DNA of 64,000 bases from Parapedobacter tibetensis (GTDB lineage Bacteria > Bacteroidota > Bacteroidia > Sphingobacteriales > Sphingobacteriaceae), in the NCBI RefSeq assembly GCF_024704835.1, contig NZ_JAMXBE010000001.1:372001-436000 (forward strand), read 5' to 3'. The notes under the pieces were generated by a model, which was not told the DNA's origin, did not search any database, and was given only the letters and a program-made list of their open reading frames with translations. Position 1 is the stretch's first letter. Each line of letters begins with the position of its first letter. This document shows positions 7,207 through 28,405 of the stretch, one piece after another. Both the position numbers and the translations under genes were made by a program.

Positions 7207-7289
7207 GGTTAGCCAATGCGGTGCCGCTTTGTATGTAATACACCCCTCGGTCAGAAATCATTTAAAACGACTTGAAAAAAATCGGCTTT

Positions 7290-7919: not shown

Positions 7920-8060
7920 AGCAGCTTATCGTTTGCAAGGACTCCCTCCCCATTTTCAACACATCTTTACTCAAGATACCGCATGAATGCGACCTATAAG
8001 CTATGGGTAGTTTGTCGTTTATAACTGTCCCGTCAATTGCAACGGAACTACAATAATAAG

Positions 8061-8093: not shown

Positions 8094-8159
8094 TTTTTCA
8101 TTTTGCGATTTTGCAGCTAGACTCAGTCATTTTATGAGGTTTTGGTCTTCATTGCTTAC

Positions 8160-9155: not shown

Positions 9156-9171
9156 AAGCTAACTGCAACAA

Positions 9172-9318
9172 TCATAAATTCGTTAAATTCCATTCATACT
9201 CCCATTGGATATACGGTGTATCACCATCCAAACGAATAAGGCAACCAAATATACCTGCTGTCTTTCAAGTCACCAGGGCTCCAGCGATCTGTCATATCGC
9301 ACAACATGCAATGCTCTT
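9172..9318 (-). pseudogene. Frameshifted C-terminal remnant of a carbohydrate-active enzyme
   Basis: Between the two GH43 genes the minus strand encodes DMTDRWSPGDLKDSRYIWLP followed by YSFGW and a stop. One base out of phase it continues DGDTPYIQWEYEWNLTNL and stops at 9172. The two halves join into one tail if a single G is removed near 9235. The DSRYIWLP...IQW pattern is a typical end of Bacteroidota glycosidases. No N-terminal part or start codon remains: the preceding frame runs into the coding region of the upstream gene. It is read as the stump of a third enzyme lost by deletion. The family assignment is tentative. Confidence 0.5.
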
Positions 9319-9321
9319 CGT

Positions 9322-11256: not shown

Positions 11257-11331
11257 ATAGCCCTACCTCATGGTCTTGAGTTTTGTTTATAATGGCTTTG
11301 CTTGTTAAGCACCGCATAAACAAAAATAGGG

Positions 11332-11361
11332 AAATATTTATAAATGTCAACCAAACAATAT
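11332..11361 (-). promoter_or_regulatory. Candidate promoter/operator of the tandem GH43 gene
   Basis: On the minus strand the run TTGTTTGGTTGACATTTAT followed by AAATATTT matches the element at 8061-8093 at most positions, allowing one gap. Two clear matches within 3.3 kb, each upstream of a gene of the same locus, suggest shared control. The -7 box is less good here (TATTTCCC, or TATTTTTG a few bases further on), so the exact promoter is uncertain. Confidence 0.4.
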
Positions 11362-11416
11362 AAAAAGGTCAGGGCAATCGGGCATTATCGGGTATTTCGG
11401 GGTATAATGTCCCGTT

Positions 11417-12277
11417 TAACGGTATTGTTTAGTCGCTTAACAGTACTGTTCAATCGCTCAACAGTATTGTTCAGATGCTCCGTTGTACTGTTGGAACGCT
11501 CCGTGGTATCATGGAGCGGCTCAAGGATACTGCTGAACAGCTTAACAGTATCACGGAAACGCTCAACAGTATTGTTCAGATGCTCCGTTGTACTGTTGGA
11601 ACGCTCCGTGGTATCATGGAGCGGCTCAAGGATACTGCTGAACAGCTTAACAGTATCACGGAAACGCTCAACAGTATTGTTCAGATGCTCCGTTGTACTG
11701 TTGGAACGCTCCGTGGTATCATGGAGCGGCTCAAGGATACTGCTGAACAGCTTAACAGTATCACGGAAACGCTCAACAGTATTGTTCAGATGCTCCGTTG
11801 TACTGTTGGAACGCTCCGTGGTATCATGGAGCGGCTCAAGGATACTGCTGAACAGCTTAACAGTATCACGGAAACGCTCAACAGTATTGTTCAGATGCTC
11901 CGTTGTACTGTTGGAACGCTCCGTGGTATCATGGAGCGGCTCAAGGATACTGCTGAACAGCTTAACAGTATCACGGAAACGCTCAACAGTACTGTTCAGA
12001 TGCTCCGCAGTACTGTTGGAACGTTCCTTGGTATCATGGAGCGGCTCAAGGATACTGCTGAATAGCTTAGCAGTATCACGGAAACGCTCCACAGTATTGT
12101 TCAGATGCACCACAGTACTGTTGGAACGCTCCGTAGTATTGCGGAAACGCTCCACAGTACTGTTCAGATGCTCCACAGTACTGTTGGAACGCTCCTTGGT
12201 ATCATGGAGCGGCTCAAGGATACTGCTAAATAGCCCGGCAATATCACAGAGATGCCAACAGCATTGTCCAAACAGTT
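11417..12277. repeat. Phased 21-bp tandem repeat array with 105-bp higher-order unit
   Basis: Forty 21-bp units run without any insertion or deletion from 11417 to 12256, and a decayed 41st reaches 12277. Most units end in GCT and centre on AGTAYTG. Five successive units form a 105-bp block that appears identical in five copies starting at 11459, 11564, 11669, 11774 and 11879; a sixth at 11984 and later units are diverged. Some units contain the 12-base palindrome AACAGTACTGTT. Because 21 is divisible by 3, long frames stay open on both strands (plus 11344-12303 and 11475-12065, minus 12176-11385) and read as heptads such as LRGIMER LKDTAEQ. No frame has a convincing start context or recognised domain. 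Confidence 0.9.
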
Positions 12278-12537
12278 TCCTTTACGACTCATGCTCTGCC
12301 TGATTTGTGAACTACGCTTTATTAGTTCATTTTTAAAAGATGGCAAGCATATTGGACACCACAATCAGAGCGTGTAACTTATCACTAGGGGTCCTATTGT
12401 TCACTGCCATCTTCAATGTCTGTATAAGTAGTCTGTTCTGCACACATCGTCTCACTTAATGCCCAACCTATTATCTTTCGGTCAGCAAGGTCCATCACCG
12501 CCGTTAGGTATTTCCAAGCATTGGAGGTGGATCGCTC
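12250..12537 (-). pseudogene. Decayed IS3-family (IS150-like) transposase fragment
   Basis: Reading the minus strand from about 12537, one frame gives WKYLTAVMDLADRKIIGWAL and SETMCAEQTT, then a stop. The sequence continues in other frames as LKMAVNNRTPSDKL, then HSDCGVQYACHLFKNELIK, and finally QSMSRKGNCLDNAV. These are consecutive blocks of the rve (DDE) domain of IS3-type OrfB, including the HSD..QY region and the SMSRKGN.xDNA block. At least two frameshifts separate them. The end, where ESFF would be expected, is replaced by the edge of the 21-bp repeat array. No terminal inverted repeats or orfA were found. Confidence 0.8.
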
Positions 12538-12576
12538 CCCTGAATGCCTCCTGCTCTAATAGGATTCAACGGATGA

Positions 12577-12616
12577 TAAAAAAACAGCCCCCGTCCATCG
12601 GATGAACAAGGGGCTG
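12577..12616 (-). terminator. Rho-independent terminator of the M16 peptidase gene
   Basis: On the minus strand CAGCCCC (12616-12610) pairs with GGGGCTG (12591-12585) across an 18-base loop and is followed by a run of seven T. It lies 30 bases beyond the peptidase stop at 12646, the normal place for its terminator. Confidence 0.75.
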
Positions 12617-12645
12617 CTTACAAACACATGATAAAGACTTTTTCG

Positions 12646-15513
12646 CTACTGCGCCTCGGGCATCAGCACAAATTTGAACAGGCGGTCTTCCTGAAGGTAT
12701 TTATTGGCCACGGCTTTCACGCTCTCAACGGTCACTTGGTTCAGTTCGTCGAGGTAGCGCAGGATGTATGCCGGGTCTTCGTTGTTCTGGTAAGATCCGG
12801 ACAGATGGCTCATCCAGAAACCGTTTTCCCGCAGCTGCACTTCCAGCACGCGCCTCTGCTCGATCACAAACTTATCGATATCCACCTGTTCGGGGCCATT
12901 CCGCTTGATTTTATTGACCTCGTCAAACACGGAAGCCAGCAGCGGCTCCGCTCGCTCGGGACTGGTGCCATAAGCGATGCTGAATGAATACCGCTGGCGG
13001 GGATATTTGGCATTGGAGGCCCTGGCCGAAACACCGTACACCCCGCTTTCCGCCTCGCGGATCCGTTCAATCAACTTGATATTGAGGATGCTTTCCAAGG
13101 CATCAAGCTGCATATTCTCGTCTTCGGAATAATCGTAGTCGCCGAAGTAATACAATCCTACGCTGGACTTCTGTTCCTTCCCTTTATAGACCGTGCGCTC
13201 CAGACCTTTCGCAGGTGGGTATAGCCCCAGATCGCGGGCCTGCTCCTTCCGGTGAAGCGCAGGCAACCCACCGATATACTGCAACACCAGCGGCATGATT
13301 TCCGCTTCGGTAAAGCTGCCCACGATGGTTACGGTGAAGTCAGACGCATCGGCAAAGCGTTCCCTGAAAATATCGTATGCACGTTGCGGATCCACCCAAT
13401 CCACCTGCTCCACGGTCATGCTGGTGCGGCGGATATTGTTGTTGTAAAGCACTGCATTGACAGAATCCCCGAACACTTCATTCGGGTCGTCCAGTCGGTT
13501 TGTCAATGAAGCTTTCACCCGCTGCATATACCCCCGGAACACCTCTATATCCAACCGGGGCACGGTAAAATAGCCATGGATGAGCTCGAAGGCGGTCTTG
13601 AGATCTTTCTTGCCGCTCGACGCATTGAAACCTTCTGTGCGCTCCGCGATAAATGGACTCACGGAAACCTTCTTCCCGCTCAGGTATTTGGTAAGCTGCG
13701 TGGCGTTATACGGACCCAAACCGCTGCTTCCCACCACGGTCGCGGCATAAGCTGCAGACCGGTAATCTTCGTCGCCATATAGTGAGGTGCCCCCCGGGCT
13801 GAATGCCGAGATGCTGATTTCATCGTTCTTGAAGTCGGTGGGTTTAAGTATCACCCGCACACCGTTGCCCAACGTCAGCTCCGTTACGCCCAATTCCGGA
13901 ATCTCCTTCCGGCCGGCTACCGTGCCTGCCTCCGGTTCCTTTTCCAGCAATGGTACATCCTGTACATCATCCTCATAAGGTGCGATATCGGCGGATTTGA
14001 TGGCTGCCAGCCAATTGTTCACGGTATCCTCACCGGGCAGGTCCGCTTTTTCGCGATCAGGTGCCATGATGAGCACATCACGGTTGTTATCCACAAAGTA
14101 CTGCCTGCCCATTTGATTCACTTCTTCCAATGCGATGGTGCCGATCAGCTGTTTGCCCAAGCGGTACCGGTCTTCATTGCTCAGTACATTCTCCCCTTCC
14201 AGAAAATGGTTGAGGTAGCTGCCCACGTAACTTTCCGATTTACGTTTGTCGCGCTCAGCATACGCCGATTCGAAACTTGTAAAGAAGTTATTCCTGGCCC
14301 GCTCCAGCTCGGTATCGGTAAATCCGTATCGCTTGATGCGCTCAAATTCGGTCAACAGCGCTTTGAACCCCCGCTCCATCTCGCCCGGTTTGGCGGTAAA
14401 GCTCATGGTGAACGCATCCAGCCCGCGCAGGAATCCGCCGATACTCCCCCCGCCGTTGATGAACGGCGGATCGGACTGGCGCATCAGCTCCGCGAAACGT
14501 GCGCCTGCCAGTTGGTTGAAGAGCGATTTGGTAAGCTGCGCGCGGTAGTCGCCAATCGTCTTCACTTCTGCTTCGGTATGTTTGGTGATGATCTGCACGA
14601 CTGTTTGCGGCATCTCGGGATCGGTTACCGCCATGAACTGGTTCTTGCCCGAGAGCGGTATGCGGTATGCATCGCGTGCCGGCGCATCCTCCGGATTTTT
14701 CAGGTCCGAAAAAGGCGCTTTCACCCGTCGCTCCATATCCGCCACATCGATATCGCCTACGATGATCAGCGCCTGCAGGTTCGGCCGGTACCATTTGCGG
14801 TGGAAGTTGCGCACTGTTTCATAGCTGAAACCCTCGATGATCTCCTTGGTACCGATGGGCAGCCGCTGTGCATAGCGAGATTGGTTTAGGATCATCGGGA
14901 AATACTGGTCGCGCATGCGCTGCTGTGCGCCACGGCCACCCAGCATCTCGTGGAGTACCACGCCGCGCTCCTTGTCGATTTCCTCGCCGTCGAGCAACGC
15001 ATCCTGCGCCCAGTCGCGCATCACCTGAAGGCCATTGCCCAGCAATTCGGGATTGTCCGATGGGATGGGCAACTGGTATACGGTCTCGTCAAACGAGGTA
15101 TAGGCATTCAGGTCGCCGCCAAAGCGCACACCAGCCTTCTGCAGGTAATCGACCAGCTCATTCTTCGGGAAATGCTTCGTGCCGTTGAACTGCATATGCT
15201 CCAAGAAATGGGCCAGACCGAGTTCATCCTCGGTTTCCAATATGGATCCTACCTTGGTGGCCAGGTACATCACCACCCGGTCTTTCGGCTCCGTGTTGCG
15301 GAGGATATAATACTGGAATCCGTTGGGCAGCGTACCGCGGAGCACGCCCTTGTCCATGGGTAGTTCATCGGAGAGACGCAGGGAATCCCGGGTAATTCTG
15401 ATATGTACCTCAGATCTTACGCCGAGGGCGGAAAGCATAAAAATTGAAAAAAGCAAGGTTGCCGCTAAGCTTCTTAAACTATAAAATAACATTTGAGTAT
15501 TAATCATCATCAT
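12646..15513 (-). CDS. M16-family zinc metallopeptidase (PqqL/pitrilysin type)
   Basis: 955-residue exported peptidase. The inverted zinc motif HFLEH is at 102-106 (AHFLEHMQFNGTKHFPKNE), with the downstream Glu region DKERGVVLHEM completing the site. A second M16 half begins near ELTLGNGVRVILKPTDFKNDE and has no zinc motif, as usual for two-domain members of this family. The N-terminal hydrophobic segment (about 14-32) looks like a signal peptide. It is a single-gene unit with its own terminator, between the repeat array and a transposase-like scrap. It may process peptides, possibly serving the TlpA/FKBP/SusCD locus upstream, but that link is only positional. Confidence 0.92.
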   Translation of the reverse strand: MMMINTQMLFYSLRSLAATLLFSIFMLSALGVRSEVHIRITRDSLRLSDELPMDKGVLRGTLPNGFQYYILRNTEPKDRVVMYLATKVGSILETEDELGLAHFLEHMQFNGTKHFPKNELVDYLQKAGVRFGGDLNAYTSFDETVYQLPIPSDNPELLGNGLQVMRDWAQDALLDGEEIDKERGVVLHEMLGGRGAQQRMRDQYFPMILNQSRYAQRLPIGTKEIIEGFSYETVRNFHRKWYRPNLQALIIVGDIDVADMERRVKAPFSDLKNPEDAPARDAYRIPLSGKNQFMAVTDPEMPQTVVQIITKHTEAEVKTIGDYRAQLTKSLFNQLAGARFAELMRQSDPPFINGGGSIGGFLRGLDAFTMSFTAKPGEMERGFKALLTEFERIKRYGFTDTELERARNNFFTSFESAYAERDKRKSESYVGSYLNHFLEGENVLSNEDRYRLGKQLIGTIALEEVNQMGRQYFVDNNRDVLIMAPDREKADLPGEDTVNNWLAAIKSADIAPYEDDVQDVPLLEKEPEAGTVAGRKEIPELGVTELTLGNGVRVILKPTDFKNDEISISAFSPGGTSLYGDEDYRSAAYAATVVGSSGLGPYNATQLTKYLSGKKVSVSPFIAERTEGFNASSGKKDLKTAFELIHGYFTVPRLDIEVFRGYMQRVKASLTNRLDDPNEVFGDSVNAVLYNNNIRRTSMTVEQVDWVDPQRAYDIFRERFADASDFTVTIVGSFTEAEIMPLVLQYIGGLPALHRKEQARDLGLYPPAKGLERTVYKGKEQKSSVGLYYFGDYDYSEDENMQLDALESILNIKLIERIREAESGVYGVSARASNAKYPRQRYSFSIAYGTSPERAEPLLASVFDEVNKIKRNGPEQVDIDKFVIEQRRVLEVQLRENGFWMSHLSGSYQNNEDPAYILRYLDELNQVTVESVKAVANKYLQEDRLFKFVLMPEAQ

Positions 15514-15818: not shown

Positions 15819-16592
15819 CTAATAAACCGTAAAATTTATTCTATCAAGCCCTACGTTTCCTTCCTTTGGGTCATAAGCATATACCTGTACTTCATAATCT
15901 CCCTTGCCAGCGATGGGTAGCATTACTTCAAAGATATTATTCGTGTCCGTAATTTTCAACGGCACCTCCGTTATGCGGTCCCCATTTCGTTTTATAATGG
16001 CCGCCACATTATAATCCTCTGAGTTCCATGTGCCGTCCTTTGAAATGACACAACCGCAAGCCATGGTCACACTGGCTTTCAAGGATAACCTACCATTCGT
16101 TATGCTTGCCAGTGTGATATACTGCTGGGTGGTCGGTGAGAGGACATCCACAATGAATCCCGGTATTTCCACGATTATCCCGTCTCCTAAAATATGCTTA
16201 CCAGGGATCAGCCATGTCTGCGTGGTCACCTTCTTTGTCCCGTTTCGGCGGTTAGCGGGCGCTACGACCTCGATGTCTACGAACGTCGGTTCGGAAATAT
16301 CCACAACGGCCTCAAATTTTGAGGTTGTACTATCGGCCAGCGCTTTACCCCTGACGGCCGGCTCATACATAATTTGTTTGGTATTGCCGGATCCTCCCGT
16401 CGCCAAGCCCTTAGCGAGCACCTCTCCCGTTAATGCGTTTTTGACAACGACATGTACACCCAATGTAGCGCCTACGAATTTGGCATCGCGGGCTTTAGCC
16501 CGTATTACAACTTTTGTAGGCTGCGCCACCGCGGAAACAATACCGCACAGGAGTATTAAACTTGCGAGTATTATAATCTTTTTAATCATCAT
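15819..16592 (-). CDS. Exported protein of unknown function, last gene of locus A
   Basis: 257 residues with a clear signal peptide (IIILASLILLCGIVSAVAQ). I do not recognise the family. The mature part is rich in beta-strand-like stretches (TKVVIRAKARDAKFVG, ATLGVHVVVKNALTGEVLAK, FVDIEVVAPANRRNG) and has a CGC motif in TMACGCVISKDGTW. Near the end KGDYEVQVYAYDPKEG resembles an immunoglobulin-like fold. It starts 5 bases after the FKBP stop, so it is translated from the same message. Its role is probably periplasmic; a substrate-binding or chaperone-like function is only a guess. Confidence 0.75.
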   Translation of the reverse strand: MMIKKIIILASLILLCGIVSAVAQPTKVVIRAKARDAKFVGATLGVHVVVKNALTGEVLAKGLATGGSGNTKQIMYEPAVRGKALADSTTSKFEAVVDISEPTFVDIEVVAPANRRNGTKKVTTQTWLIPGKHILGDGIIVEIPGFIVDVLSPTTQQYITLASITNGRLSLKASVTMACGCVISKDGTWNSEDYNVAAIIKRNGDRITEVPLKITDTNNIFEVMLPIAGKGDYEVQVYAYDPKEGNVGLDRINFTVY

Positions 16593-16597: not shown

Positions 16598-17254
16598 CTA
16601 ATTCAGTTTTTTAACAACCTTTATTAATTCAACGTCAAAAATTAAAACTGATCCAGCTGGAATCCTAGGCCGATCCATTATACCGTAGGCAAGTGTATAA
16701 GGTACATAAAATTTGTATTTCGACCCTTCAGTCATTAACTGCAGACCTTCCGTCCATCCTCTTATAACTTTTAATAGATCAAAGGTAATAGGTTCATCCC
16801 GCTTGTACGAACTATCAAATTCAGTTCCATCGGTTAAACGCCCCGTATAATGTGCCGTTACAGTGTCCGTCAGGGTCGGCTTTATGCCACCACCTTTTGT
16901 GACAACTTTATATTGAAGACCAGACGTAGTAGTCTGTACGCCTGGCTTCAATTTATTATCCGCTAAAAACTTTCGTCCGGCCTGGATAGTTTTAGCTATT
17001 TGCGGATTAGTTATTTTCACTATAGCCAAATCTGCTTGCTCTTCGGTAAACTTTGACTTGGTATGAATCAAAACGTCGTCAATTGCCCGTGACACAATCA
17101 AACCGTTGATGGACTTCATACCCTGTTTAACGTAGGCGTTAGCAATCTTGACACCTATGGCGTAACTGGCAGAATCAGCTGCTTTCTTTAGATCCATCTG
17201 GGCATGAACACCCGCCGAGAAAAGGACGAACAATAACAATAATATGCTTCTCAT
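16598..17254 (-). CDS. FKBP-type peptidyl-prolyl cis-trans isomerase, exported
   Basis: 218 residues with a signal peptide (SILLLLFVLFSAGVHAQ). An FkpA/Mip-type N-terminal dimerisation region (about 20-105, DLKKAADSASYAIGVKIANA) precedes one FKBP domain (about 115-215). The domain shows GLQYKVVTKGGG, VTAHYTGRLTDGTEFDSSY, VIRGWTEGLQLM, AYGIMDRPRIPAGSVLIFDV. Such enzymes catalyse proline isomerisation during folding of periplasmic and outer-membrane proteins. It lies 7 bases from the upstream TlpA-like gene and 5 from the next, so it is part of the same operon. Its presence inside a SusC/SusD locus is unusual and suggests handling of a proteinaceous or folded cargo. Confidence 0.92.
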   Translation of the reverse strand: MRSILLLLFVLFSAGVHAQMDLKKAADSASYAIGVKIANAYVKQGMKSINGLIVSRAIDDVLIHTKSKFTEEQADLAIVKITNPQIAKTIQAGRKFLADNKLKPGVQTTTSGLQYKVVTKGGGIKPTLTDTVTAHYTGRLTDGTEFDSSYKRDEPITFDLLKVIRGWTEGLQLMTEGSKYKFYVPYTLAYGIMDRPRIPAGSVLIFDVELIKVVKKLN

Positions 17255-17261: not shown

Positions 17262-18338
17262 TTATTTACCGAAAAGCTCTGCTAGCTTTTCATTCAGTAA
17301 TTGTCCTCTCAGGTTTCTTGCAATGATCTTTCCTTGAGGGTCAACCAGCAACGTGCTTGGTATGGCGCTAATTCCATAGTATGTTGAAACTTCGTTTTCC
17401 CATCCTTTTAAATCGGATAATTGTGCCCAGGGCATTCCGTCTTCCCGAATCGCCTTTTTCCAGTTTTCACCATTATCATCGAGTGATACGCCCACAACCG
17501 TAAAGTTTTGATCTTTGTATTTATTATAAGCTTTCAATACGTTAGGGTTTTCAGAACGGCAAGGCCCACACCAACTAGCCCAAAAGTCTACAAATACATA
17601 TTTACCTGCAAAGGCAGAAAAACTTACCGGCTTTCCATTCATATCATTCTGTGTGAAATTTAGGATGGGAGCGCCTATTGCACTTCGCTTTAATACGGCC
17701 ATCCGCTCAGTCAACGCCCTGCCGTTGGCACTAGACTTAAGCCTGTCGCTTAAACTATCATAAATACGTTTAACATCTTCATAGGCACCCATAGCCGAAT
17801 GGTCAGTAGCTAGAATCAAAGTGTAAGGGCCGTCTGGATGTTCTTTCGCATACTTAACAGCAGCCTCAAATTTTTGGCGCCTCACGTCTTGAAATTCCTT
17901 TTCAACCTTCAACCGGGCCTCTTTATCTGTTGTCCGAAACCTGGGTACCATGGCCGACTCAAGTTTTTCCAGCGGTTGCAGTATTTCAGCATACGCATCG
18001 GCGTCATCTTGCACTTTGGAGCCTGTAATCTTCACCCTTTGTAAAGAATCCGCATTGCCTTCCATAGTAATCTCACCACTTTCAGCATGCAACGGCACCA
18101 CCCTTTTTTCAAATTGAAAATACACTTTTTGAGGTCCAGGCAGATTGGCAACCCATGTAAATTTTCCGTTCTGAGCCTTAACCGTATCAGATATCATGGT
18201 TTGACCATTCATATAATTAATGGCAAACTCTTCGTTACCCAAACCTTTAATATTACCTTTTAGCCTAACTTGTTGCCCAAAGCAGGCTGATCCTACCCAT
18301 AGCAGCATTGCTGCGATTCCTACCATTTTTTTCATCAT
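17262..18338 (-). CDS. TlpA-like thioredoxin with DUF4369 N-terminal domain (locus A, second)
   Basis: 358-residue exported thiol-disulfide oxidoreductase. Signal peptide to about residue 21; a DUF4369-type beta domain at about 24-115 (VRLKGNIKGLGNEEFAINYM); a helical linker; then an AhpC/TSA-thioredoxin fold from about 222 with the active site WCGPC at 256-260 and the cis-Pro block AIPSTLLVDPQGKI. It is strikingly close in length, order and wording to the gene at 33116-34201 (both have NPNVLKAY, GMPWAQ and EVSTYYGI), so the two are paralogues. It probably reduces or isomerises disulfides in the periplasm. Confidence 0.93.
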   Translation of the reverse strand: MMKKMVGIAAMLLWVGSACFGQQVRLKGNIKGLGNEEFAINYMNGQTMISDTVKAQNGKFTWVANLPGPQKVYFQFEKRVVPLHAESGEITMEGNADSLQRVKITGSKVQDDADAYAEILQPLEKLESAMVPRFRTTDKEARLKVEKEFQDVRRQKFEAAVKYAKEHPDGPYTLILATDHSAMGAYEDVKRIYDSLSDRLKSSANGRALTERMAVLKRSAIGAPILNFTQNDMNGKPVSFSAFAGKYVFVDFWASWCGPCRSENPNVLKAYNKYKDQNFTVVGVSLDDNGENWKKAIREDGMPWAQLSDLKGWENEVSTYYGISAIPSTLLVDPQGKIIARNLRGQLLNEKLAELFGK

Positions 18339-18379: not shown

Positions 18380-20317
18380 CTATAATTTAATTTTAATTTC
18401 TTGTTCCACTGGCGGATAACAAATATTATCATTACAGCACTGATAACTGATGCGACAAATCAGTTCACCCTCCCCTCTCCCTGCAAATTCCTGAGTAAAA
18501 ATCGCCGATTCTTTAAATATCGTTGTCCCGCTAGCGCCATACAACTTGGCAATAGGAACACCCAGAGGGGTCATACTCGCATATCCTGATGGCGGCACAA
18601 TGCTGACTTCTGTCTTAATGAACGGGTCAGCTCCTGCCACCGAATTATAAATGTGATACCCCGGATGTATTTTAAATTTGATGACAACTTCTTTATTTCC
18701 ATTATCAAGGTCAACAATCCCTGCGGCAACGCTTACCGGCTCCTGGTCAGAAGTTTCGCCTGTAGTTATCTTACCGTATGCCAAAACCTTCTTTTTTAAA
18801 TAGTTATTCTCTTTACTAAAGTCTAATGAATTAACAAGGAAATAATAACCCCCGCTTTCCGTAAAGAACAACTTGCTCTTGTTTGCTTCATACCATTTTC
18901 TCCATGCTTCTGGCGTATCAAAATCTACTAAAGCATACCTGCTGAGCAGGCGCTTTCCTTTCTCTATATCTTTACCGGTTTCCCAAAGTTTAATAGCTGT
19001 ATTCAGCACCTCAGGATCTGACTTTTTTAACTTAAGACTTTTCAAATCTTCATCTATTTTGCCATCTCCATAGAAATAATCCATGTTCTCGTCATAGTAT
19101 TTTTGATAGGCCTTGAGGTCAGTACCAAATTTGGAATATAACGGGTTTCCGGACTTCAAATATTCTTCAAGCGTTTCTGGCGTTGGCGTTTCTACTTGTC
19201 TATTTACAATACCAAGTTCCTCCTCACTAATTGGTATGCCTTTAGACTGCTTGGTTTTGATCTGCTCAATTTGCCGTTTGTGTCTTTCCGCCAACCCTGT
19301 ATAGTAGACATTCATTAGTTGGTGAGCTTTATTGGAGGCTGCATATTTTTCGGTCTGAAACTCGTAGGTAGTTTTTATACGGGCATTGAATTTCCTTGCT
19401 ATCACTTTCTCATCTTTCATTTTAGACATATGGACAAGCGTATTTATGAATACCACTTTTGCCTCCTCTGTCATATGATCGGGTGAGGCGGCAAAACCCC
19501 AATGGAAATAGTTCCCATGACGCCCCAAAGCCACGGCATTACCTTCTTTGAGCGAAACTCCTCCTGAAATATATTCCGAGTCTGGTGAATCCTCAAATCC
19601 GGCTCCATGGCAGATCAGACCCGGTTTTATATCGTAAGTCATATCTTCATAAGATAGCGTTTGCACCTTCCACATAGGTACTTTAGCGGGAAAGATCTTG
19701 TCTTCTCTATAATTTAATACCGATGCTTCCAAGGGCAGTGGTTTAGATGTCATGGTGATCTTAACGGGGTAAGGACCCGAGAAAATACCATGCTCAGTTT
19801 TGATGTTATAGGCATCGGCTGCCAGGCACAAGCAATACCAATCGAATTTGAGACCTATGTTATAACCTAGTTTGTAACCAGTTTCTCCGACGAACACCAT
19901 TGGAGCCGAGAATTTTTCATCCAGCACCTTCACTCGCTCTGCAATAGAAATCCGGTCCTTATAAAAATCATAACCAGGTTCGTAACGCTTTGAGCCAGGG
20001 ACAGCATCCATAACCGTCACGTCATAATTTGTAGACATACCTGGTTGGTAATTTTTAGCATGTACAACCGTGACTTTATTAAAATACTGGTTTAACAGTG
20101 TTTCGAAGGATCTTATCCTTTTTTCAACATCTTTATCCCAGGCTTCTTTAGTCGGTTTGTGACCCGTCTCTGAATAATTTGCTGATCCTCCTACATAGAG
20201 CACATTTAAATCAGTTTTTTTGATCTGCGCACGCATTTCGCTTATATTTGTGAAACCCAATATGGCGAACATCAAGATGATCTTCAAATGCGCTCTTATT
20301 TCCTTTCCAATTTTCAT
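18380..20317 (-). CDS. ThuA-like / DsbD-N-terminal-domain fusion protein
   Basis: 645 residues from an ATG at 20317, one base after the previous stop; a longer frame to 20398 would overlap that gene. A signal-anchor segment (LKIILMFAILGFTNI) leads into a ThuA/glutamine-amidotransferase-like domain (about 30-310: LNVLYVGGSANYSETGH, PGLICHGAGFED, GNAVALGRHGNYFHWGF). A Lys/Glu-rich helical middle follows. The end (about 540-645) matches the DsbD periplasmic domain (HPGYHIYNSVAGADPFIKTE) and carries SYQCCNDNICYPP, where Cys 627 and Cys 633 have the C-x5-C spacing of the nDsbD redox pair. It may pass electrons to the flanking TlpA-like proteins. The fusion is unusual and the ThuA part may not be catalytic. 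Confidence 0.78.
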   Translation of the reverse strand: MKIGKEIRAHLKIILMFAILGFTNISEMRAQIKKTDLNVLYVGGSANYSETGHKPTKEAWDKDVEKRIRSFETLLNQYFNKVTVVHAKNYQPGMSTNYDVTVMDAVPGSKRYEPGYDFYKDRISIAERVKVLDEKFSAPMVFVGETGYKLGYNIGLKFDWYCLCLAADAYNIKTEHGIFSGPYPVKITMTSKPLPLEASVLNYREDKIFPAKVPMWKVQTLSYEDMTYDIKPGLICHGAGFEDSPDSEYISGGVSLKEGNAVALGRHGNYFHWGFAASPDHMTEEAKVVFINTLVHMSKMKDEKVIARKFNARIKTTYEFQTEKYAASNKAHQLMNVYYTGLAERHKRQIEQIKTKQSKGIPISEEELGIVNRQVETPTPETLEEYLKSGNPLYSKFGTDLKAYQKYYDENMDYFYGDGKIDEDLKSLKLKKSDPEVLNTAIKLWETGKDIEKGKRLLSRYALVDFDTPEAWRKWYEANKSKLFFTESGGYYFLVNSLDFSKENNYLKKKVLAYGKITTGETSDQEPVSVAAGIVDLDNGNKEVVIKFKIHPGYHIYNSVAGADPFIKTEVSIVPPSGYASMTPLGVPIAKLYGASGTTIFKESAIFTQEFAGRGEGELICRISYQCCNDNICYPPVEQEIKIKL

Positions 20318-20318: not shown

Positions 20319-21536
20319 TTATTCTGGATTAATCGATTGTTTATTAAAAATTTGTGCCAGCATTTGATCCATTTCCTGATCTCCCCTAATGCCAACAAAG
20401 CGACCTACGATCATTCCATTCGGATCGATTAAGATTTTTGTAGGCAGCGTGTATACGGCATAATTTGCGGACACGTCTTCGCTTATGTCGACTTTGTCTC
20501 CATCAACCTTCAGTCCTCGAAGGATATGTTTCCATATACCGATTTTATCGACCTCTATTGCCTGCTTCCATTTATCTACATTAGTATCATCATCAGAAAC
20601 GCCAATAATTTCGAATCCCTTACGCTGGTACTGCGCATATAATTTTCTTAAATGCGGATTACTTTTTCTGCATGGCACGCACCAGGTTGCCCAAAAGTCG
20701 AGCAATACATATTTACCTTTGAAATCGGTTAGACTCAATCTTTCACCACGCAACTCTGTTGAAGTAAAGTTGGTTGCAATACTACCAGGTGATCCCTTCT
20801 TAATGTCTTCCAAAGTCGAAGAAAGAATTCTTCCCAGACTACTGTTTTTAAAACTTGCTGGGATTTTCTCGTAAATAGATGCGCTCTGCATATAAGGAAT
20901 TCTGGGCGCATTATTCATTAATAATATACCGGCAGTAACCGTATTGGGATTTTGTAGTATATAGTTTATGTCGATATTGGTAATATCCAACTGTAACATT
21001 GCCTGGGCCATATTCAAAGAATCGGCCCGTTTCTTTATGGTGTTTAGCGTAGCTTCATCTTTGTTGGCGGCTATCGCAGCCTTATAATCTCCATCAGCTT
21101 TGCGCAATTCATTCAATAAAGGCGACCTTTTTGAGCGTATCGTAGCTTTCTGCTTTTCTAGTTGGTTGATATTGTCTTGAACGACAGAACCCTTTAAGGT
21201 TCCTTCAGCTAACTTTCCATCTACAAGATTCAACTGCATCACTCCCGGCTCCATAAACGCTGTAAATACATCATCTCCCCTGGTCCCGTCCGCGGAGAAG
21301 GTAGTGCTGATTGTTGCATAGACGACACCGTCGACCTCGCCTTTCAAGACAAACTTCCCGTCATTTATCAAACCACTGTCTACATGCTTTGTACCCTTAT
21401 GGTCTGTAGCATAACTTAGATAGATTTTTCCATTTTTTTTGCCATCTATCGTACCTTTGATGGTATAAGGTCTCGTCTGAGCACTTGCTAAAACAAGCTG
21501 GCCGGCGGTCACTAAAAATAACAAACTTTTTAACAT
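20319..21536 (-). CDS. TlpA-like thioredoxin with DUF4369 domain (locus A, first)
   Basis: 405-residue exported protein: signal peptide ending SAQ at about 20, DUF4369 domain (PYTIKGTIDGKKNGKIYLSY) to about 115, a helical linker, then a thioredoxin fold with WCVPC at 285-289 and the cis-Pro block YTLPTKILIDPNGMIVGRF. It is the paralogue of 34247-35449, which shares the IYLxY start, the GxPGS linker, GFEIIG(V/I)SDDD and KIGxWKHxLRGLK. It directly follows SusD (68-base gap) and precedes the ThuA/DsbD fusion with one base between. Role: periplasmic disulfide reduction or isomerisation. Confidence 0.93.
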   Translation of the reverse strand: MLKSLLFLVTAGQLVLASAQTRPYTIKGTIDGKKNGKIYLSYATDHKGTKHVDSGLINDGKFVLKGEVDGVVYATISTTFSADGTRGDDVFTAFMEPGVMQLNLVDGKLAEGTLKGSVVQDNINQLEKQKATIRSKRSPLLNELRKADGDYKAAIAANKDEATLNTIKKRADSLNMAQAMLQLDITNIDINYILQNPNTVTAGILLMNNAPRIPYMQSASIYEKIPASFKNSSLGRILSSTLEDIKKGSPGSIATNFTSTELRGERLSLTDFKGKYVLLDFWATWCVPCRKSNPHLRKLYAQYQRKGFEIIGVSDDDTNVDKWKQAIEVDKIGIWKHILRGLKVDGDKVDISEDVSANYAVYTLPTKILIDPNGMIVGRFVGIRGDQEMDQMLAQIFNKQSINPE

Positions 21537-21604: not shown

Positions 21605-23059
21605 TTAATAATTTGGTGTCAACGTAGGGTTAAAATCTGAAGAGTTTGTAGGGAACGCAAATATCCAAAGCGGTGAATTCGGGTTCAGCGTAAACGTCTC
21701 ATCTACAGCTGGAGTATTTCCAGATGCAACTCTTACAATTCTTCTGGTGATTGTTATGGGGTACTTACCCTCACGATTCCATCTCTTAATCTCAACAAAA
21801 TTTTGCCAGCTGAACAGATATTCAATACGAGCTGTCCTCTGCAGGTGCAAGATGGCCTGTCCTTCAGTAGCTGCAGAAAGATCTGTAGCGGCAGGATCAG
21901 ATTGGTCGTTACGATGTTTTCTGATCAGGTTAATTATATCCATACCCCCAGAGATGTCACCGGCTCTGATCAAACACTCGGCCTTCATCAGGTATAAATC
22001 TGAAGTAGTCATCCCTCCGCTATTGGTATCATAGGTGGTACCCAACGGATAAAACCATGCAGTCCCGCTCACTCTACTGGTCAAGCCTACAGAGGAATAG
22101 TCATAAATGCTGTTCTTATATCTTAGAATGTTGGCTGATTCATAAAGCCCTGCTTGCGGAACGCCGCTGGTAACTCCTAATATTTCGCGGGATACATTCA
22201 TTCCAGCAGGGAATGCCCTCGATTGTGAGGCATAGAATAAATTTTCCCTGGAACTCTGAAATTGTTTGTTCAAGGAATTATTTGGCAAGAATTTATTGTG
22301 GTCATCAATAAAGCTGTTGATCGCCAAAGCTTCGTTACAGGCCTTAAGCGCTTCACTATAATTTCCCATTGACATCATTACCCTGGCCCTAACAGCCAAC
22401 GCAAAACATCTACCTACGCGCATGTTATTCTTACCTTCAGCAGATAAAGAATTTAAGGCAAAAGCTGCATCCAAATCTTTAATGATGTTCTCATACACCC
22501 TAGCGACGCTCAGTTTCTCATTTACCGTTTCGAGATTCAAATCTGTTGGGTAAGGGATTCCCCCGTCGGTTGCAGCCATGCTTTTGTCATAGGCCTTTGC
22601 AAATACGTTCACCAATAAATAGTGCATATAGGCTCGCAATACGTACGATTCCGCCTTAATCTTACTCAGCAATGCCTTGTCGCCCGATGCTTCATCTGCC
22701 TGGTTCAGCACGATATTGCAAACCTTCACAATATTTCCATATATGCCTTCATAAGTAGGATCCGTCACTGTAAGCGCCGAGCGATTTAAGGTTTCATCAT
22801 ATGTTAGCAAGGCGTAATCCAGGTTCTTAACGTTGCCCGTAACCACCTGTGGTACATTGGTATTGGATGGATAAGAATCATTTATCAGTAATGTTTGCCT
22901 GGCAAAATCGAAGGTTTCCGCCGAACTGAAATTCATATGTCGATCAAGATCTGTTGCGGTATTCAGCAAATTAAATCCTTTTGGTTTGACGTCAGTGTAT
23001 TTTTCACAACCCAATAAGGTTAGTCCTAATACAATTCCCGTTAAATATTTTATTTTCAT
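21605..23059 (-). CDS. SusD-family lipoprotein of locus A
   Basis: 484-residue outer-membrane lipoprotein; KIKYLTGIVLGLTLLGC gives the lipobox Cys at about 18. It has a shorter SusD type of core: SYVLRAYMHYLLVNVFAKAY, DLYLMKAECLIRAGD and RIEYLFSWQNFVEIKRWN. It sits 12 bases after SusC, so transfer to that porin is expected. Its size and order match the locus B SusD (478 residues). No glycosidase accompanies it, so the ligand class cannot be named. Confidence 0.92.
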   Translation of the reverse strand: MKIKYLTGIVLGLTLLGCEKYTDVKPKGFNLLNTATDLDRHMNFSSAETFDFARQTLLINDSYPSNTNVPQVVTGNVKNLDYALLTYDETLNRSALTVTDPTYEGIYGNIVKVCNIVLNQADEASGDKALLSKIKAESYVLRAYMHYLLVNVFAKAYDKSMAATDGGIPYPTDLNLETVNEKLSVARVYENIIKDLDAAFALNSLSAEGKNNMRVGRCFALAVRARVMMSMGNYSEALKACNEALAINSFIDDHNKFLPNNSLNKQFQSSRENLFYASQSRAFPAGMNVSREILGVTSGVPQAGLYESANILRYKNSIYDYSSVGLTSRVSGTAWFYPLGTTYDTNSGGMTTSDLYLMKAECLIRAGDISGGMDIINLIRKHRNDQSDPAATDLSAATEGQAILHLQRTARIEYLFSWQNFVEIKRWNREGKYPITITRRIVRVASGNTPAVDETFTLNPNSPLWIFAFPTNSSDFNPTLTPNY

Positions 23060-23071: not shown

Positions 23072-26000
23072 TTAGAAATTTAAGTTAATACCAAACACAT
23101 ATGAGGTAGGCGTAGGTAAACCAAGTGTTTCAATATCAATGTGAACATCTTTCTGCTTTGCCCACAGGATTCTCGGATTGTTTACCTGAAACCTCAGTTG
23201 TGCACTTCTTGCTTTAAATTTAGACACCAGGCTTTCAGGAAGATTATATCCTGCTACTACGTTTCTGATGCGTATAAAATCAGCAGGTCTTACCCTAATA
23301 TCTGCATGTACCAATTGATTCTGGTTAGCATTGTATCTAAAATATTGGCCACTTGCCGGAACATTAGTATCTGTATTAGTCGGTGTCCAGGAATCCAAAA
23401 GGTAATTTTCCATAGAACCATACAGAGGCCACTCTTCGGCTCTAGTATTCGTTAACGCTCTCGCTACGTGACCGCCGTAATACACCATAAAAGCCGACAA
23501 GCTAAAACCCTTATATCGTACTTCATTGTTAAGGGAGGCTGATGTGATCGGTTCTGAGCTTCCGGAGTAAACCGGAACGTTCAAGTCGGAAGGCTGACTA
23601 AACCGCCTCAATGTCGGCTCACCATTGGCATCATAAAACAGCGGTTGTCCTGTTTCATTTAGCCCGGCATACCTAAAAGAGAAAATTGACCTTACCGGAT
23701 AACCCAATCTGAAACCACCATCTGTAATTTCGAACGGAGAAGTATAAGCCATATCGATATAAGTCACTTTATTGGTATTTCGTGCCAGGGTAAGCGCGGA
23801 AGTCCAGCTAAAACCATTCGCAGTTGGATTTTTGAACCAATCATAGTTCAGGTTGAGTTCTACCCCTTTATTTAGCATACTTGCTGCGTTTATGGTTAAC
23901 GTTGTAAATCCTTCTGACGCATCCATTCGTTGATCAGCAAAAAGGTCTGTCCCCTTCCTTCTAAACAAATCAATATTACCCGCAATCCCATAGATGTTGA
24001 AATCGACACCAACGTTTATGCTTTCGGTTTTTTCCCAGCGCAGTGTCGGGTTCGGCGCATTTTCAATGGTTGAGTTTTGCAGCAGGGTGTGTAAATTATT
24101 TCCAGAAGTGGCAGCTAACCTGGCAGTAGACCCTTCCCTGATATTACCCGTAAATCCATAGGACGCTCTCAACCTTAAATAACTGATTGCCGGTAAGGTT
24201 TCCATAAAACGCTCTCTGTTAACTATCCACGACATACCTGCAGACCACAATGGCTTACCGCGATACTTAGGATCACCTCCAAAAATATCCGCATAATCCT
24301 TACGAATTGATCCAAATAAATTGTACCTGTTTTTATAGGTGTAGGTCATATTAGCATACGAAGAAGCAAAGCGGTTCCAATTCTCGCGGATGTATTCGGA
24401 TTCCAGACTTTCGGTTGAAGGGGAAGCCAATGCACTGAAAAGCGTTGTAGGAAGTCTATTCATCAGCTCCAGATTAATGGAGTTGGTAGAATGGGTTTGT
24501 AGTGCATCATCGTATCCGACATATACAAAACTGTTCCCATTAGATCTCGTTTGCCGAATCTCCATTCCAGCAAGCGTCAGGAATTCGTGGTCGCCGAATT
24601 GTTTGTTATAGTTAAATTGACCCCTCACTGTCAGAGACGGTGTCCTTAAGTATGATTTTCTTAGCTTTCCACCCACCGGCAAGTAATTGGTATCTATTAA
24701 AACGCCATTTCGATCCACCTCTTGTACAAATGTGTTACTCAGGTAACGCATCGTATAACTTTCAGCTTCAGAATAATTTGATGTATCAGCTCGGTTATCT
24801 TCAAACTGAAACATGGGAGTGAATGATAAACCTGGCAAAAGCTTTGCATTTAACCGAATGTAATATCGGGTATTCATGCTGTTGGTTTTATCAAAGTCGC
24901 GCTCTAACTCGTCTAAATGATTAAACCGGAGTGAAACCAGAGATGGTCTTTCGCCGGTTTCGGTTATGCTGCTGTATTCATTGATTTCTGGAAAGTAGTA
25001 GTTTCTGCTACCGTCTGAATTAACTAACTTATAATAAGACGGAACATTGAAAGGGGTAGTAGCAATTTCACTGGCATGACTTCTTCCGGAGCCAATAACT
25101 GTATTTACCCCATACTCCGCTATAAACCATTTGGCAACTTCGACACTCCCCTTATAATTTATATTTAATTTCCTGTTATAGGCATTGATGATCCCGCCGT
25201 TATCTGTTGTATAATTAATTACCAGGTTGGACTGTGACTTCCCATTGTTCGTCCTCAACGCGAAATTGGTCTGTTGAATAACCATGTTTTTAAGCGCATG
25301 TTTACGATACTGACTGTAGAAATCATTTTGCCGCAAGCCTGCAACAAGCTGATCAATCTGCGATTGAGGATACGCGCCGGGATTTTGGAAATTCATTTCA
25401 TAAGCATAATGAATCGGCGACATTGGAACGCCGAAAGCCAGAAAAGCCTCGCCTAAACTAGGATCCGCATCAGGATCATTGTAAACCCATTTGAAATAAT
25501 CGGTTTCCCAATCAATCTGTTGATTTGGAGTCATGTAGTTGTAGTAGCTATAATCTAGCTTGTCGCTGATCGTGGTATTACTGGAAACCTGGATGGTGGT
25601 TCTGTCAACTTCCTTAGCTTTTTTTGTTGTTACTACGATAACCCCGTTCGATGCCCTCGCCCCGTAAATGGATGCTGCTGCTGCATCCTTTAGGACGTTA
25701 ATGCTTTCTATATCATAGGGATTAATATCCTCTATTGTGCCTTCGATTGGCAAACCATCTACAACCACAAGAATATCCCTGGATGCGTTGATAGTTCCCA
25801 GACCTCTGATGGTGGTATTACCGCGAAACCGTACCAGACCTGGCACAACTCCCTCCAGATTATCAAGAATGTTTACCGTATTACGTTTTTCCAGTTCCGC
25901 AGCTGTAACAGTGACAACAGCCCCTGTACTTTTCTCCCTGGCTATCGTCTGATATCCGGTGCTGACTACGGTTACTTCTTCCAATTCTCTCAACGAAGAA

Positions 26001-26590
26001 CAAAGAATAACGCGCTGTAGTGAATCGTTTGTCGCTGATATGCGTAAAGGCGTATATCCTATGGAACTGAACACGACAGTGGATTCGTCATCCGGTATCA
26101 GGATAGTCCATTCGCCTGCCGCATCGGTCTTGGTGATCGCTCTACTACGGATCCCCTGAGGAAGAGCTTGCCAATTCTCAATGCCAACAGTCACCTGGGG
26201 GATAGGGGTACCATCTATCTCGACTACCCTACCTGTTACAAAACGACTACCCTTTTGTTGGGGATCAGTTGACAAGAAAGGGTGCGCCGAATTATTTGGC
26301 CTTGTTGCGGCAGCGCGTCGTGTGATGGTGTACGATTTTTCAGCGACATACAGGAAGATGAGCTCATTGGGGTACAGTACGTTTCGAAGCGCATCTTCCA
26401 ACTTGTCGGTTTTTAATGCTTCAGCGGATATGAATTTGTTGTTTAACAAATTGTGCTCGTAGCTAAGGTTGGCATCAAATCTGTCTTGGATGCGGCGGAT
26501 CGCTTCTGCCAGCGGTATTCGGCTTTCCTGGGCAACGGCATTGTAACCGAGACAAAAGGTCATAAGAACTAGCAGCCAACTGAAGCTCAT
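23072..26590 (-). CDS. SusC-family TonB-dependent transporter with STN domain (locus A)
   Basis: 1172 residues from the ATG at 26590, with GGGAG four bases ahead and a signal peptide SWLLVLMTFCLGYNAVAQ. A TTG at 26620 would add KVRKKNGRT to the n-region and remains possible. An STN domain (about 25-90, PLAEAIRRIQDRFDANLSYE) precedes a carboxypeptidase-D-like domain (VVEIDGTPIPQVTVGIENW), the plug (LEEVTVVSTGYQTIAREKST, then YGARASNGVIVVTTKKA) and a barrel ending in NLNF. With FecR and sigma genes upstream it should act as the signalling importer of the locus. Confidence 0.93.
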   Translation of the reverse strand: MSFSWLLVLMTFCLGYNAVAQESRIPLAEAIRRIQDRFDANLSYEHNLLNNKFISAEALKTDKLEDALRNVLYPNELIFLYVAEKSYTITRRAAATRPNNSAHPFLSTDPQQKGSRFVTGRVVEIDGTPIPQVTVGIENWQALPQGIRSRAITKTDAAGEWTILIPDDESTVVFSSIGYTPLRISATNDSLQRVILCSSLRELEEVTVVSTGYQTIAREKSTGAVVTVTAAELEKRNTVNILDNLEGVVPGLVRFRGNTTIRGLGTINASRDILVVVDGLPIEGTIEDINPYDIESINVLKDAAAASIYGARASNGVIVVTTKKAKEVDRTTIQVSSNTTISDKLDYSYYNYMTPNQQIDWETDYFKWVYNDPDADPSLGEAFLAFGVPMSPIHYAYEMNFQNPGAYPQSQIDQLVAGLRQNDFYSQYRKHALKNMVIQQTNFALRTNNGKSQSNLVINYTTDNGGIINAYNRKLNINYKGSVEVAKWFIAEYGVNTVIGSGRSHASEIATTPFNVPSYYKLVNSDGSRNYYFPEINEYSSITETGERPSLVSLRFNHLDELERDFDKTNSMNTRYYIRLNAKLLPGLSFTPMFQFEDNRADTSNYSEAESYTMRYLSNTFVQEVDRNGVLIDTNYLPVGGKLRKSYLRTPSLTVRGQFNYNKQFGDHEFLTLAGMEIRQTRSNGNSFVYVGYDDALQTHSTNSINLELMNRLPTTLFSALASPSTESLESEYIRENWNRFASSYANMTYTYKNRYNLFGSIRKDYADIFGGDPKYRGKPLWSAGMSWIVNRERFMETLPAISYLRLRASYGFTGNIREGSTARLAATSGNNLHTLLQNSTIENAPNPTLRWEKTESINVGVDFNIYGIAGNIDLFRRKGTDLFADQRMDASEGFTTLTINAASMLNKGVELNLNYDWFKNPTANGFSWTSALTLARNTNKVTYIDMAYTSPFEITDGGFRLGYPVRSIFSFRYAGLNETGQPLFYDANGEPTLRRFSQPSDLNVPVYSGSSEPITSASLNNEVRYKGFSLSAFMVYYGGHVARALTNTRAEEWPLYGSMENYLLDSWTPTNTDTNVPASGQYFRYNANQNQLVHADIRVRPADFIRIRNVVAGYNLPESLVSKFKARSAQLRFQVNNPRILWAKQKDVHIDIETLGLPTPTSYVFGINLNF

Positions 26591-26678
26591 CGTTCTCCCA
26601 TTTTTCTTTCTTACTTTCAAGATATTCAGGTTAATTATTCAATAATTATTTTGGTTATTTATCGTTGCAGTTCTGTAG

Positions 26679-27710
26679 TCATTTGCTATTCAATATTATC
26701 GTATCTCCTTTGGTCTCTATTCGCGCTTCAAGAATATTGGCTAAGGAATATAAAATACTCTCTCGGGAGCTGAGTGACACACGGCCATCTATGCGCTTGT
26801 TCAGCAAGGCTGTGTCTCGCACTACGATTTCCTGTCCGTACAGGTGTCGGAATTCTTGGATCATCTCAGCAACCGAAAGATTTACCGCCACCATATTGCG
26901 CGAGGTCCAGGACGTAGATTGACGAACCGGTTCGCCTACCGGTAACACCTGGGAGAGCCGACCCAATTGATACTGTACCTCGTCGCCGGCAACTAAAGTT
27001 CGTATGTCTGTAGGCGCATTTCTATCCCGTAGCTTGATTTTTCCTACTAGTAGCGAAACTGTAATGCTATTATCGCGGTTTTTGATATTAAATGTAGTAC
27101 CAAGCACGTCGATGGCTAGGTCTCCCGAGTAGGCGGTAAATAGACCTGATGCGGCCTTCTTACTTGGATCTACATTCAAATGCTTGACGTTGAGCATCAC
27201 CTCGCCCGTGGTATACACTTCTCTCCTGTCAAACCACTGCCAAGCACGACGGTACGTGACGGAAGAATTTGCATTGAGGTGTATGATGCTACTATCTGGC
27301 AGCGTTGCTGATCTGATCTCTCCGTTTCCCGTACTGATCGTGACGGTAGCCTGTACATACCATAGGATACCCAAAAAAAATCCAACGAACGCCGCTGCCG
27401 CACTTCCAATCCGGGCATAACGACGGATTCTTTTGCGGGTCTCCGCACGACTAGCGATGGCCGTGTCTATATCGGCATATAGTGCATCCGTAAATTGATC
27501 CGAAGGAATTATACGCGCTACCGACAATAGACGCTCAGCAACTAATCGTGCGTTATCGTAAGCCTCTGCATTAGGTGGATTCGATGCACGCCAGTCTCGC
27601 AAGGTCAATGCGGAGTCCAGGTCAGGATTTTTCAGGTGCGACATAAAGTCGGGATCGTCCAAAAAATCGAAGATTGTATAATCACAATATTTACCCATCA
27701 TTAAGGCCAT
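26679..27710 (-). CDS. FecR-family anti-sigma factor (locus A)
   Basis: 343 residues from the ATG at 27710 (ALMMGKYCDYTIFDFLDDPD); a TTG at 27731 would add seven residues. Cytoplasmic part to about 130; a single membrane helix near IGSAAAAFVGFFLGILWYV; FecR domain with STGNGEIRSATLPDSSIIHL and DLAIDVLGTTFNI; then a C-terminal STN-like DUF4974 segment (NLSVAEMIQEFRHLYGQEIV). It lies between the sigma factor and SusC genes, so it should couple ligand binding by SusC to sigma release. Confidence 0.92.
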   Translation of the reverse strand: MALMMGKYCDYTIFDFLDDPDFMSHLKNPDLDSALTLRDWRASNPPNAEAYDNARLVAERLLSVARIIPSDQFTDALYADIDTAIASRAETRKRIRRYARIGSAAAAFVGFFLGILWYVQATVTISTGNGEIRSATLPDSSIIHLNANSSVTYRRAWQWFDRREVYTTGEVMLNVKHLNVDPSKKAASGLFTAYSGDLAIDVLGTTFNIKNRDNSITVSLLVGKIKLRDRNAPTDIRTLVAGDEVQYQLGRLSQVLPVGEPVRQSTSWTSRNMVAVNLSVAEMIQEFRHLYGQEIVVRDTALLNKRIDGRVSLSSRESILYSLANILEARIETKGDTIILNSK

Positions 27711-27808
27711 GTTAAAAGGAAGACAATTCAAGAGTTCATTTTACCCCATGAAATTTTTATTTTTTTTGCAAAAAAATTAATACACTTAGCAGGAAGAAAA
27801 ATAAGGGG

Positions 27809-28405
27809 TTAGTAGTTCGAATATAACATTTTGACAAATGTTAAGAGCAGAACAATATCAGCTTTTGGCATCGACAAAAATTCCTTAAGCGATTCAATAG
27901 CGCGATGGTTCAATTTGTAGAGGCTTTTCACCGAGATGTTAGTAAGCGTTGCAATTTCCTCGTAACTAAGCTCTTCGAAATAGCGAAGATAGATGACCTC
28001 GCGCTGTTTGGGCGTCAGCTGATCTAGGGCGCGGATAATTTGTTGAGCCCGTCTATTATCTTCTTCATTTTTGATGATCTGGTTTTCCAGATTGAACTGC
28101 AGGGCAAATTCTTCTTTATACGTTATAGGACTCAACTTACCTTCCTTCAGCTGTGCATTGAGCAAGCGATTCTTTAGGGCTACCATCAGATAGTGCTTTG
28201 GGCGGGATATTTGGCTTAATTTTCCACGTCCCTCCCATAGCTGTTCGAAAATATCCTGAATAGCGTCTCTAACGAGCGCTTCATCTCCTACCTTACGCAT
28301 GCCATATTCATACAAGGGAGGTAGCAACATCCGATAGATGTACTCGAAGGCGGTTTTATCGCCAGAAAGGAAAAGGCTCCATTGTATATCTATCATATTG
28401 GTCAT
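27809..28405 (-). CDS. FecI-like ECF sigma factor (locus A)
   Basis: 198 residues. Region 2 lies at about 10-80 (DKTAFEYIYRMLLPPLYEYG, then VRDAIQDIFEQLWEGRGKL). Region 4 lies at about 130-185 (LTPKQREVIYLRYFEELSYE, with the HTH EEIATLTNISVKSLYKLNHR). It heads locus A. A TACATTTG box, matching the Bacteroidota -7 element, lies upstream on the minus strand at 28466-28459, about 55 bases from the start codon. Confidence 0.92.
   Translation of the reverse strand: MTNMIDIQWSLFLSGDKTAFEYIYRMLLPPLYEYGMRKVGDEALVRDAIQDIFEQLWEGRGKLSQISRPKHYLMVALKNRLLNAQLKEGKLSPITYKEEFALQFNLENQIIKNEEDNRRAQQIIRALDQLTPKQREVIYLRYFEELSYEEIATLTNISVKSLYKLNHRAIESLKEFLSMPKADIVLLLTFVKMLYSNY

Follow-up and report, generated by a model that had tools for sequence, protein, structure and literature searches.

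The N-terminal domain of DsbD (nDsbD) normally reduces thioredoxin-fold proteins such as TlpA, and ScsB is a membrane DsbD-like protein. Among the SusC/SusD uptake systems, PMC10653852 describes that in P. gingivalis peptides are imported through RagAB and then digested by periplasmic DPPs. Many Bacteroidota nutrient loci carry TlpA-type genes, as both the target and the control loci of this work illustrate, and the protein described here, X, is a handle on why: it is conserved and locus-specific, and it combines a known electron-input domain with a separate invariant cysteine pair. A literature search, which included passages of PMC10434189 and PMC10653852, returned no paper on X or on a ThuA-DsbD combination.

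Genetic organization of the locus

The gene of X lies in the window, that is, the whole stretch of 64,000 nucleotides of Parapedobacter tibetensis DNA that was analysed. It is one intact ORF of 645 aa with its ATG at 20317 and its stop at 18380; the extent given in the initial annotation stood, and the strand had to be corrected to MINUS. The gene belongs to a tight minus-strand array with the order FecI-FecR-SusC-SusD-TlpA1-X-TlpA2-FKBP-257-aa gene and gaps of 1-77 nt throughout (Table 1). We take the first two to be FecI-like and FecR-like genes from their sequence and position.

Table 1. Features of the X locus and of the split DsbDs of the same genome. Positions are those of the window unless another locus is named.
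Feature	Position	Strand	Remarks
X, predicted exported protein	18380..20317	-	signal peptide ~1-30, CxC domain ~34-300, helical middle ~301-505, nDsbD ~515-645
N-terminal domain of X, residues 34-300	19418..20218	-	without Pfam or PDB sequence match
CxC motif C162-L-C164 in KFDWYCLCL	19826..19834	-	29/29 homologues and 10 further copies
nDsbD (DsbD_N, PF11412), residues 515-645, Cys pair C628/C633	18383..18775	-	Pfam, profile, model
FecI-like ECF sigma factor (presumed)	27809..28405	-	similar ORFs in homologous loci
FecR-like anti-sigma regulator (presumed)	26679..27731	-	similar ORFs in homologous loci
SusC/RagA TonB-dependent receptor	23072..26620	-	in 7-row clade of X-linked receptors only
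SusD-like lipoprotein	21605..23059	-	family search
TlpA1: DUF4369 + thioredoxin-like (WCVPC)	20319..21536	-	1 nt upstream of X
TlpA2: DUF4369 + thioredoxin-like (WCGPC)	17262..18338	-	41 nt downstream of X
FKBP-type peptidyl-prolyl isomerase	16598..17254	-	family search
257-aa exported protein	15819..16592	-	without significant family match
M16-like peptidase	12646..15513	-	305 nt downstream of 257-aa gene; GC3 0.68
Two split DsbDs of the window's genome	L060:6069-8296 and L061:5780-7945		

From its signal sequence and the gene spacing, X would be exported and co-transcribed with SusC/SusD. The chain begins with a hydrophobic stretch followed by MRA-Q, which agrees with the exported protein proposed earlier. 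Such an A-Q after a Sec signal fits the Bacteroidetes Q-rule as given in PMC10653852. Among the homologues, a Q after a small residue was found in the N-terminal region of 13/29 and a lipobox in 1/29, by a simple pattern that is crude and misses the copies of L084 and L085, lipoprotein-like by eye.

The M16-like peptidase was not accepted as a certain member of the operon, given the 305-nt gap and a GC3 step from 0.51 to 0.68. The block from SusC to FKBP has GC3 values of 0.39-0.43 against the 0.68 of M16, which suggests that the peptidase gene may be an older neighbour lying outside the acquired block discussed below. No minus-strand terminator-like site was found between the 257-aa gene and M16, and one was found past M16, in a scan whose hits do not outnumber those in its shuffles. 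Between the M16 gene and a glycosidase-like gene (named by eye), positions 11455-12139 hold a 105-bp unit repeated 6.5 times in tandem with 97% matches, where several frames are open on both strands. In addition, a second FecI-FecR-SusC-SusD operon is present at 30814-42330. Behind it come four consecutive TlpA/DUF4369-type genes, X is absent, and the identity between the SusC proteins of the two operons is only ~24%.

The C-terminal part of X is an nDsbD domain

The only family matched by the whole of X in Pfam was DsbD_N (PF11412; residues 534-642, E 3.5e-10, 40.4 bits over a curated cut-off of 25), and this family was matched in 29/29 aligned homologues (E up to 0.1). A profile built from these homologues matched solved nDsbD structures (best E 7.2e-6), with the cysteines of X and of the E. 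coli protein in register. The model of residues 510-645 reached a pLDDT of ~80-92, and the top 11 rows of its VIA comparison were all nDsbD or ScsB (Z 10.4-11.7, 102-123 residues aligned); Foldseek placed the N-terminal domain of ScsB (6c29) at the top, with nDsbD also leading. The C-terminal part of X is thus a genuine nDsbD domain, as first annotated. Neither DsbD_TM nor a C-terminal thioredoxin domain was matched by Pfam in the chain, so X is not a full DsbD.

The pair C628-x4-C633 is invariant in 29/29 homologues, whose identity to X goes down to 30%, and the motif around it, of the type YQxC....C.PP, is conserved. It aligns with the redox cysteine pair of E. coli nDsbD, which we take to be C103/C109. 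The initial annotation had described a C-x5-C pair: a conserved pair is present, and its spacing is x4 counted from C628, since the alternative C627, which gives x5, is a Cys in only 21/29 homologues. It had also made its case depend on an nDsbD fold and on conserved cysteines; both checks came out in its favour, with the fold seen in the model and the cysteines kept in all 29 aligned homologues. We infer that the domain is a redox-active electron carrier.

A membrane partner was expected elsewhere in the genome, and two were found. Each is a split DsbD, in which a DsbD_N ORF (148-149 aa, C-x4-C) lies directly upstream of a 563-aa DsbD_TM-Trx protein. A DsbD_TM protein was found in 25/27 carrier genomes.

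The N-terminal domain carries an invariant CxC and is not recognizable as ThuA by sequence

In our view, the most telling feature of X is a CxC that the initial annotation did not contain, a second cysteine pair apart from that of nDsbD, in the part of the protein that no known family covers. Both C162 and C164 are invariant in the 29 aligned homologues and in 10/10 further copies covering the site; of the 14 copies added for this count, four that are broken or without coverage of the CxC were set aside (L058, L073 and two fragments of L093). His176 is likewise invariant (29/29). Judged by its sequence relatives, X is a member of an undescribed family and not a one-off, with the CxC as its hallmark.

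The ThuA-like domain annotated at this end could not be upheld at the sequence level. No Pfam family was found in the N-terminal and middle parts of X or of 28 homologues. In the whole set of 29, six families were matched, all of them apart from DsbD_N at E >0.01 and in at best one member each. The nine copies that lack nDsbD gave scattered weak Pfam matches only, the best with an E of 0.00095, under the cut-off of that family. ThuA itself (PF06283) was matched neither in the 29 homologues nor in these nine copies. Furthermore, a sequence-profile search of the PDB with the N-terminal domain gave no match, and hhalign against 15 real ThuA domains returned a non-significant probability of 1.2%. 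The hhalign alignment is near full length (177-178 columns) and collinear, including around an HPI-like motif, and the CxC of X is absent from its ThuA row. Among 100 block-shuffled decoys, 11 reached the real ThuA score and none aligned >=150 columns. ThuA membership by sequence was rejected on these grounds.

The fold was modelled twice, in the full chain and as a domain alone, both times weakly, probably owing to the only four eligible sequences; the domain alone had a pLDDT of 48.6 and a pTM of 0.59. In VIA, this low-confidence model placed the ThuA-like 1t0b first of 1000 chains (Z 9.4, 163 residues aligned, 3.9 A), and three more GATase1/ThuA-like rows followed at Z 8.0-8.6. The rows of this model aligning >160 residues were ThuA/GATase1-like proteins and one aminodeoxychorismate synthase, of which the aligned part is presumably its amidotransferase domain. 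However, many unrelated receiver domains score within 1 Z of 1t0b with the same low-confidence model, which makes the ThuA ranking no more than suggestive, and Foldseek on the domain model gave nothing at E <= 0.001. We would describe the N-terminal domain as possibly GATase1/ThuA-like in fold rather than as ThuA. The region between the two domains is helical in the model, as first proposed.

Fusion and fission of the two domains

The CxC is kept in all nine copies without nDsbD, and for 7/9 of them an nDsbD is found elsewhere in the same predicted operon (operons were predicted from strand and gaps <350 nt). A separate nDsbD ORF of 166-174 aa shares the operon with an N-terminal plus middle protein in L083 (twice), L086, L091 and L101, and a full-length copy accompanies the nDsbD-less one in the operons of L072 and L082. 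The exceptions are L081, without an nDsbD in the operon, and L092, which stops at the contig edge. Since the nDsbD is fused in most copies and is a neighbouring gene in others, this arrangement suggests that the CxC and nDsbD domains work together.

The cluster of L083 (positions 1-13411) contains two N-terminal plus middle copies of X together with two stand-alone nDsbD genes, a fragment of a TlpA gene and a third X copy, which is truncated and was kept in that form. Beside this third copy, at the downstream end, lie a full DsbD (DsbD_N, DsbD_TM and thioredoxin) and an M16 peptidase.

Association with SusCD systems, TlpA and peptidases

SusC-like genes were found in 21/23 target loci of ~19 kb and TlpA genes in 16/23; the figures for 40 control stretches of 19 kb, evenly placed in seven carrier genomes, were 12/40 and 7/40. 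TlpA genes also occur near SusC without X, in the second operon of the window and in controls L107, L129, L131, L132 and L133.

In the SusC tree, the receptor of the window falls in a clade of seven rows that holds X-linked receptors only (SH-aLRT 100). The idea that all X loci share one SusC clade was rejected: 12 label changes were counted, 9 of them forced by starred branches, vs 18.0 with shuffled labels. This is a quick LG+G4 tree of 53 rows, from which L100 (a near-copy of L077) was dropped and short receptor fragments were left out; L070 is labelled as unlinked because two ORFs break the chain, with X nearby all the same. Because X is linked to several receptor lineages, the tree indicates that X is a recurrent companion of different SusCD pairs.

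Other neighbours in the X operons are DUF4843 and PKD_2 lipoproteins, further thioredoxins, a trypsin-like peptidase, an M60 peptidase (L017) and one GH95 glycosidase. Peptidases are present in a minority of X loci, three of which share one Met-zincin/S9 cassette. In these three (L076, L084 and L085), two DUF4953 Met-zincins, X, a short TlpA and an S9/DPPIV-type peptidase follow SusD; L076 was scanned directly, and L084 and L085 were assigned by family tally with matching gene order and sizes. Of the loci that lack a TlpA gene within 2.5 kb, many have X as the last gene of the operon and carry no peptidase there. Neither TlpA nor a peptidase is obligatory near X.

Distribution and origin

The first full-length relatives of X, 41% identical, came from one Odoribacter MAG and two MAGs of Opitutaceae. 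A profile of four sequences, run across Bacteroidota, matched 1/395 sampled genomes, that of the window itself. With X as the query, 12 of 100 genomes including its own gave a match, at full length in its own only and over the C-terminal region only in the other 11; eight congeners showed no match to X at the threshold of that search. In the family centred on Odoribacter, 20/56 genomes matched, with up to seven places in one of them (G531, partial ones included). The order of the Odoribacter genome gave 6/344, and the Opitutaceae 2/150, both already known. These profile searches use a fast first look at the genomes and may miss distant copies. Among viral contigs, the 125 pattern matches included no relative of X.

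For the SusC of the window, the closest receptors are of the Odoribacter type (40% identity and 809 blastp bits with L074), whereas in 60 searched genomes other than its own the best score was 414 bits with the genome search and 401 bits with tblastn. In the second operon, GC3 is 0.57-0.68 for SusC, SusD and TlpA, vs 0.39-0.43 in the SusC-to-FKBP block. This block was probably acquired horizontally.

Proposed role of X

We propose that X assists SusCD uptake systems as a periplasmic thiol-redox accessory, a reading to which we assign a probability of roughly 45%. The elements on which it is built were computed here, namely the nDsbD identity, the two invariant Cys pairs, the fusion and fission of the domains, the linkage with SusCD and TlpA, and the presence of DsbD in the genome. 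Once exported, X would carry electrons through C628/C633 of its nDsbD domain. This pair would be charged by membrane DsbD, directly or via the TlpA proteins, a step that leans on the biochemistry of nDsbD in E. coli. The joint invariance of the two pairs and the fusion/fission pattern point to the CxC as main customer of the nDsbD, in the same chain or in a neighbouring chain where the genes are separate, and C162/C164 would be kept reduced in this way. The CxC domain would in turn act on the cargo imported by SusCD, most likely reducing disulfides in peptides for the periplasmic peptidases; this last step is our guess from the neighbouring genes. The invariant CxC, located in the opposite half of the chain from nDsbD, strengthens the case for the substrate-bound reductase considered in the initial annotation.

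Should the CxC domain act as a reductase of cargo, the substrates of Odoribacter-type SusCD pairs would be predictable as disulfide-containing peptides. A broader and rather doubtful extension is that an undescribed family of periplasmic CxC proteins couples SusCD import to the electron supply of DsbD. X loci would then be reductive uptake loci, each with a dedicated reductase that reduces the cargo as it enters, be it a thiol-bound nutrient or peptides that are Cys-rich or disulfide-linked. As X is associated with more than one SusC lineage and a genome can hold several paralogues, such a step would then be needed for many substrates.

The other use foreseen in the initial annotation was a shared relay, in which the nDsbD takes electrons from DsbD and passes them to the two flanking TlpAs, the N-terminal part serving just to place it, at SusC/SusD for instance. 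The reduction of TlpA would be the normal activity of nDsbD, the gaps to the TlpA genes are of 1 and 41 nt, and a TlpA gene lies <=2.5 kb from X in 24/39 homologous loci. However, none does in the remaining 15/39 (several of them on short contigs), which weakens the relay as a general rule; it also leaves the invariant CxC unexplained, and the copies that shed nDsbD keep the CxC. We consider it unlikely.

Equally improbable, in our estimation, is that C162/C164 and His176 bind a metal, imported or catalytic, with the nDsbD having no other task than to keep the cysteines reduced, in the way that TlpA of Bradyrhizobium serves Sco/CuA. The invariance of all three residues in 29/29 homologues is consistent with such a site. 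Regulation of the FecI/FecR type and TonB-dependent receptors fit a regulated uptake of scarce nutrients, and ScsB, whose N-terminal domain is the top Foldseek match of the nDsbD part, is a copper-tolerance protein. Nevertheless, no metal transporter or metallochaperone appears among the 25 listed of the 64 families from 69 operon ORFs, the spacing of the CxC and His176 is unlike any metal motif that we can name, and the N-terminal model is too weak to show a site. If the CxC were a metal site, it would represent a new route for DsbD electrons into metal uptake. Lastly, a C-terminal domain that serves only as a structural immunoglobulin-like module without a redox role is very improbable: such folds are common binding modules and the model also matches adaptin ears, but at lower Z, with nDsbD and ScsB filling the top 11 VIA rows and C628/C633 conserved in 29/29 together with the surrounding motif.

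Comparison with known systems

X is built from known parts and an undescribed CxC domain family. It shares with the nDsbD of DsbD (1jpe and 1vrs of E. coli, 6dps of N. meningitidis) the fold, the size, the YQxC....CxPP motif and the Cys pair, although in the profile alignment the spacing is one residue shorter, x4 in X and x5 in E. coli. It differs from DsbD in the fusion to ~480 residues of undescribed protein and in lacking the DsbD_TM and thioredoxin domains. The periplasmic domain of ScsB (6c29, Proteus mirabilis) is likewise of the nDsbD type, whereas X, signal peptide aside, lacks a membrane domain. With respect to ThuA and class I glutamine amidotransferase-like proteins (PF06283; 1t0b, 4e5v, 2gk3, 3rht), superposition of the low-confidence model covers 163-172 residues (Z 8.0-9.4), but X is predicted to be exported, is fused to nDsbD and has no significant sequence similarity to them. 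Finally, the X loci resemble RagAB and other SusCD loci for peptide or glycan uptake in their SusC/SusD pair and downstream exported helpers, among which some loci have S9/DPP-type and Met-zincin peptidases. They differ in carrying redox modules in the operon: X, TlpA, a separate nDsbD and, once, a full DsbD nearby.
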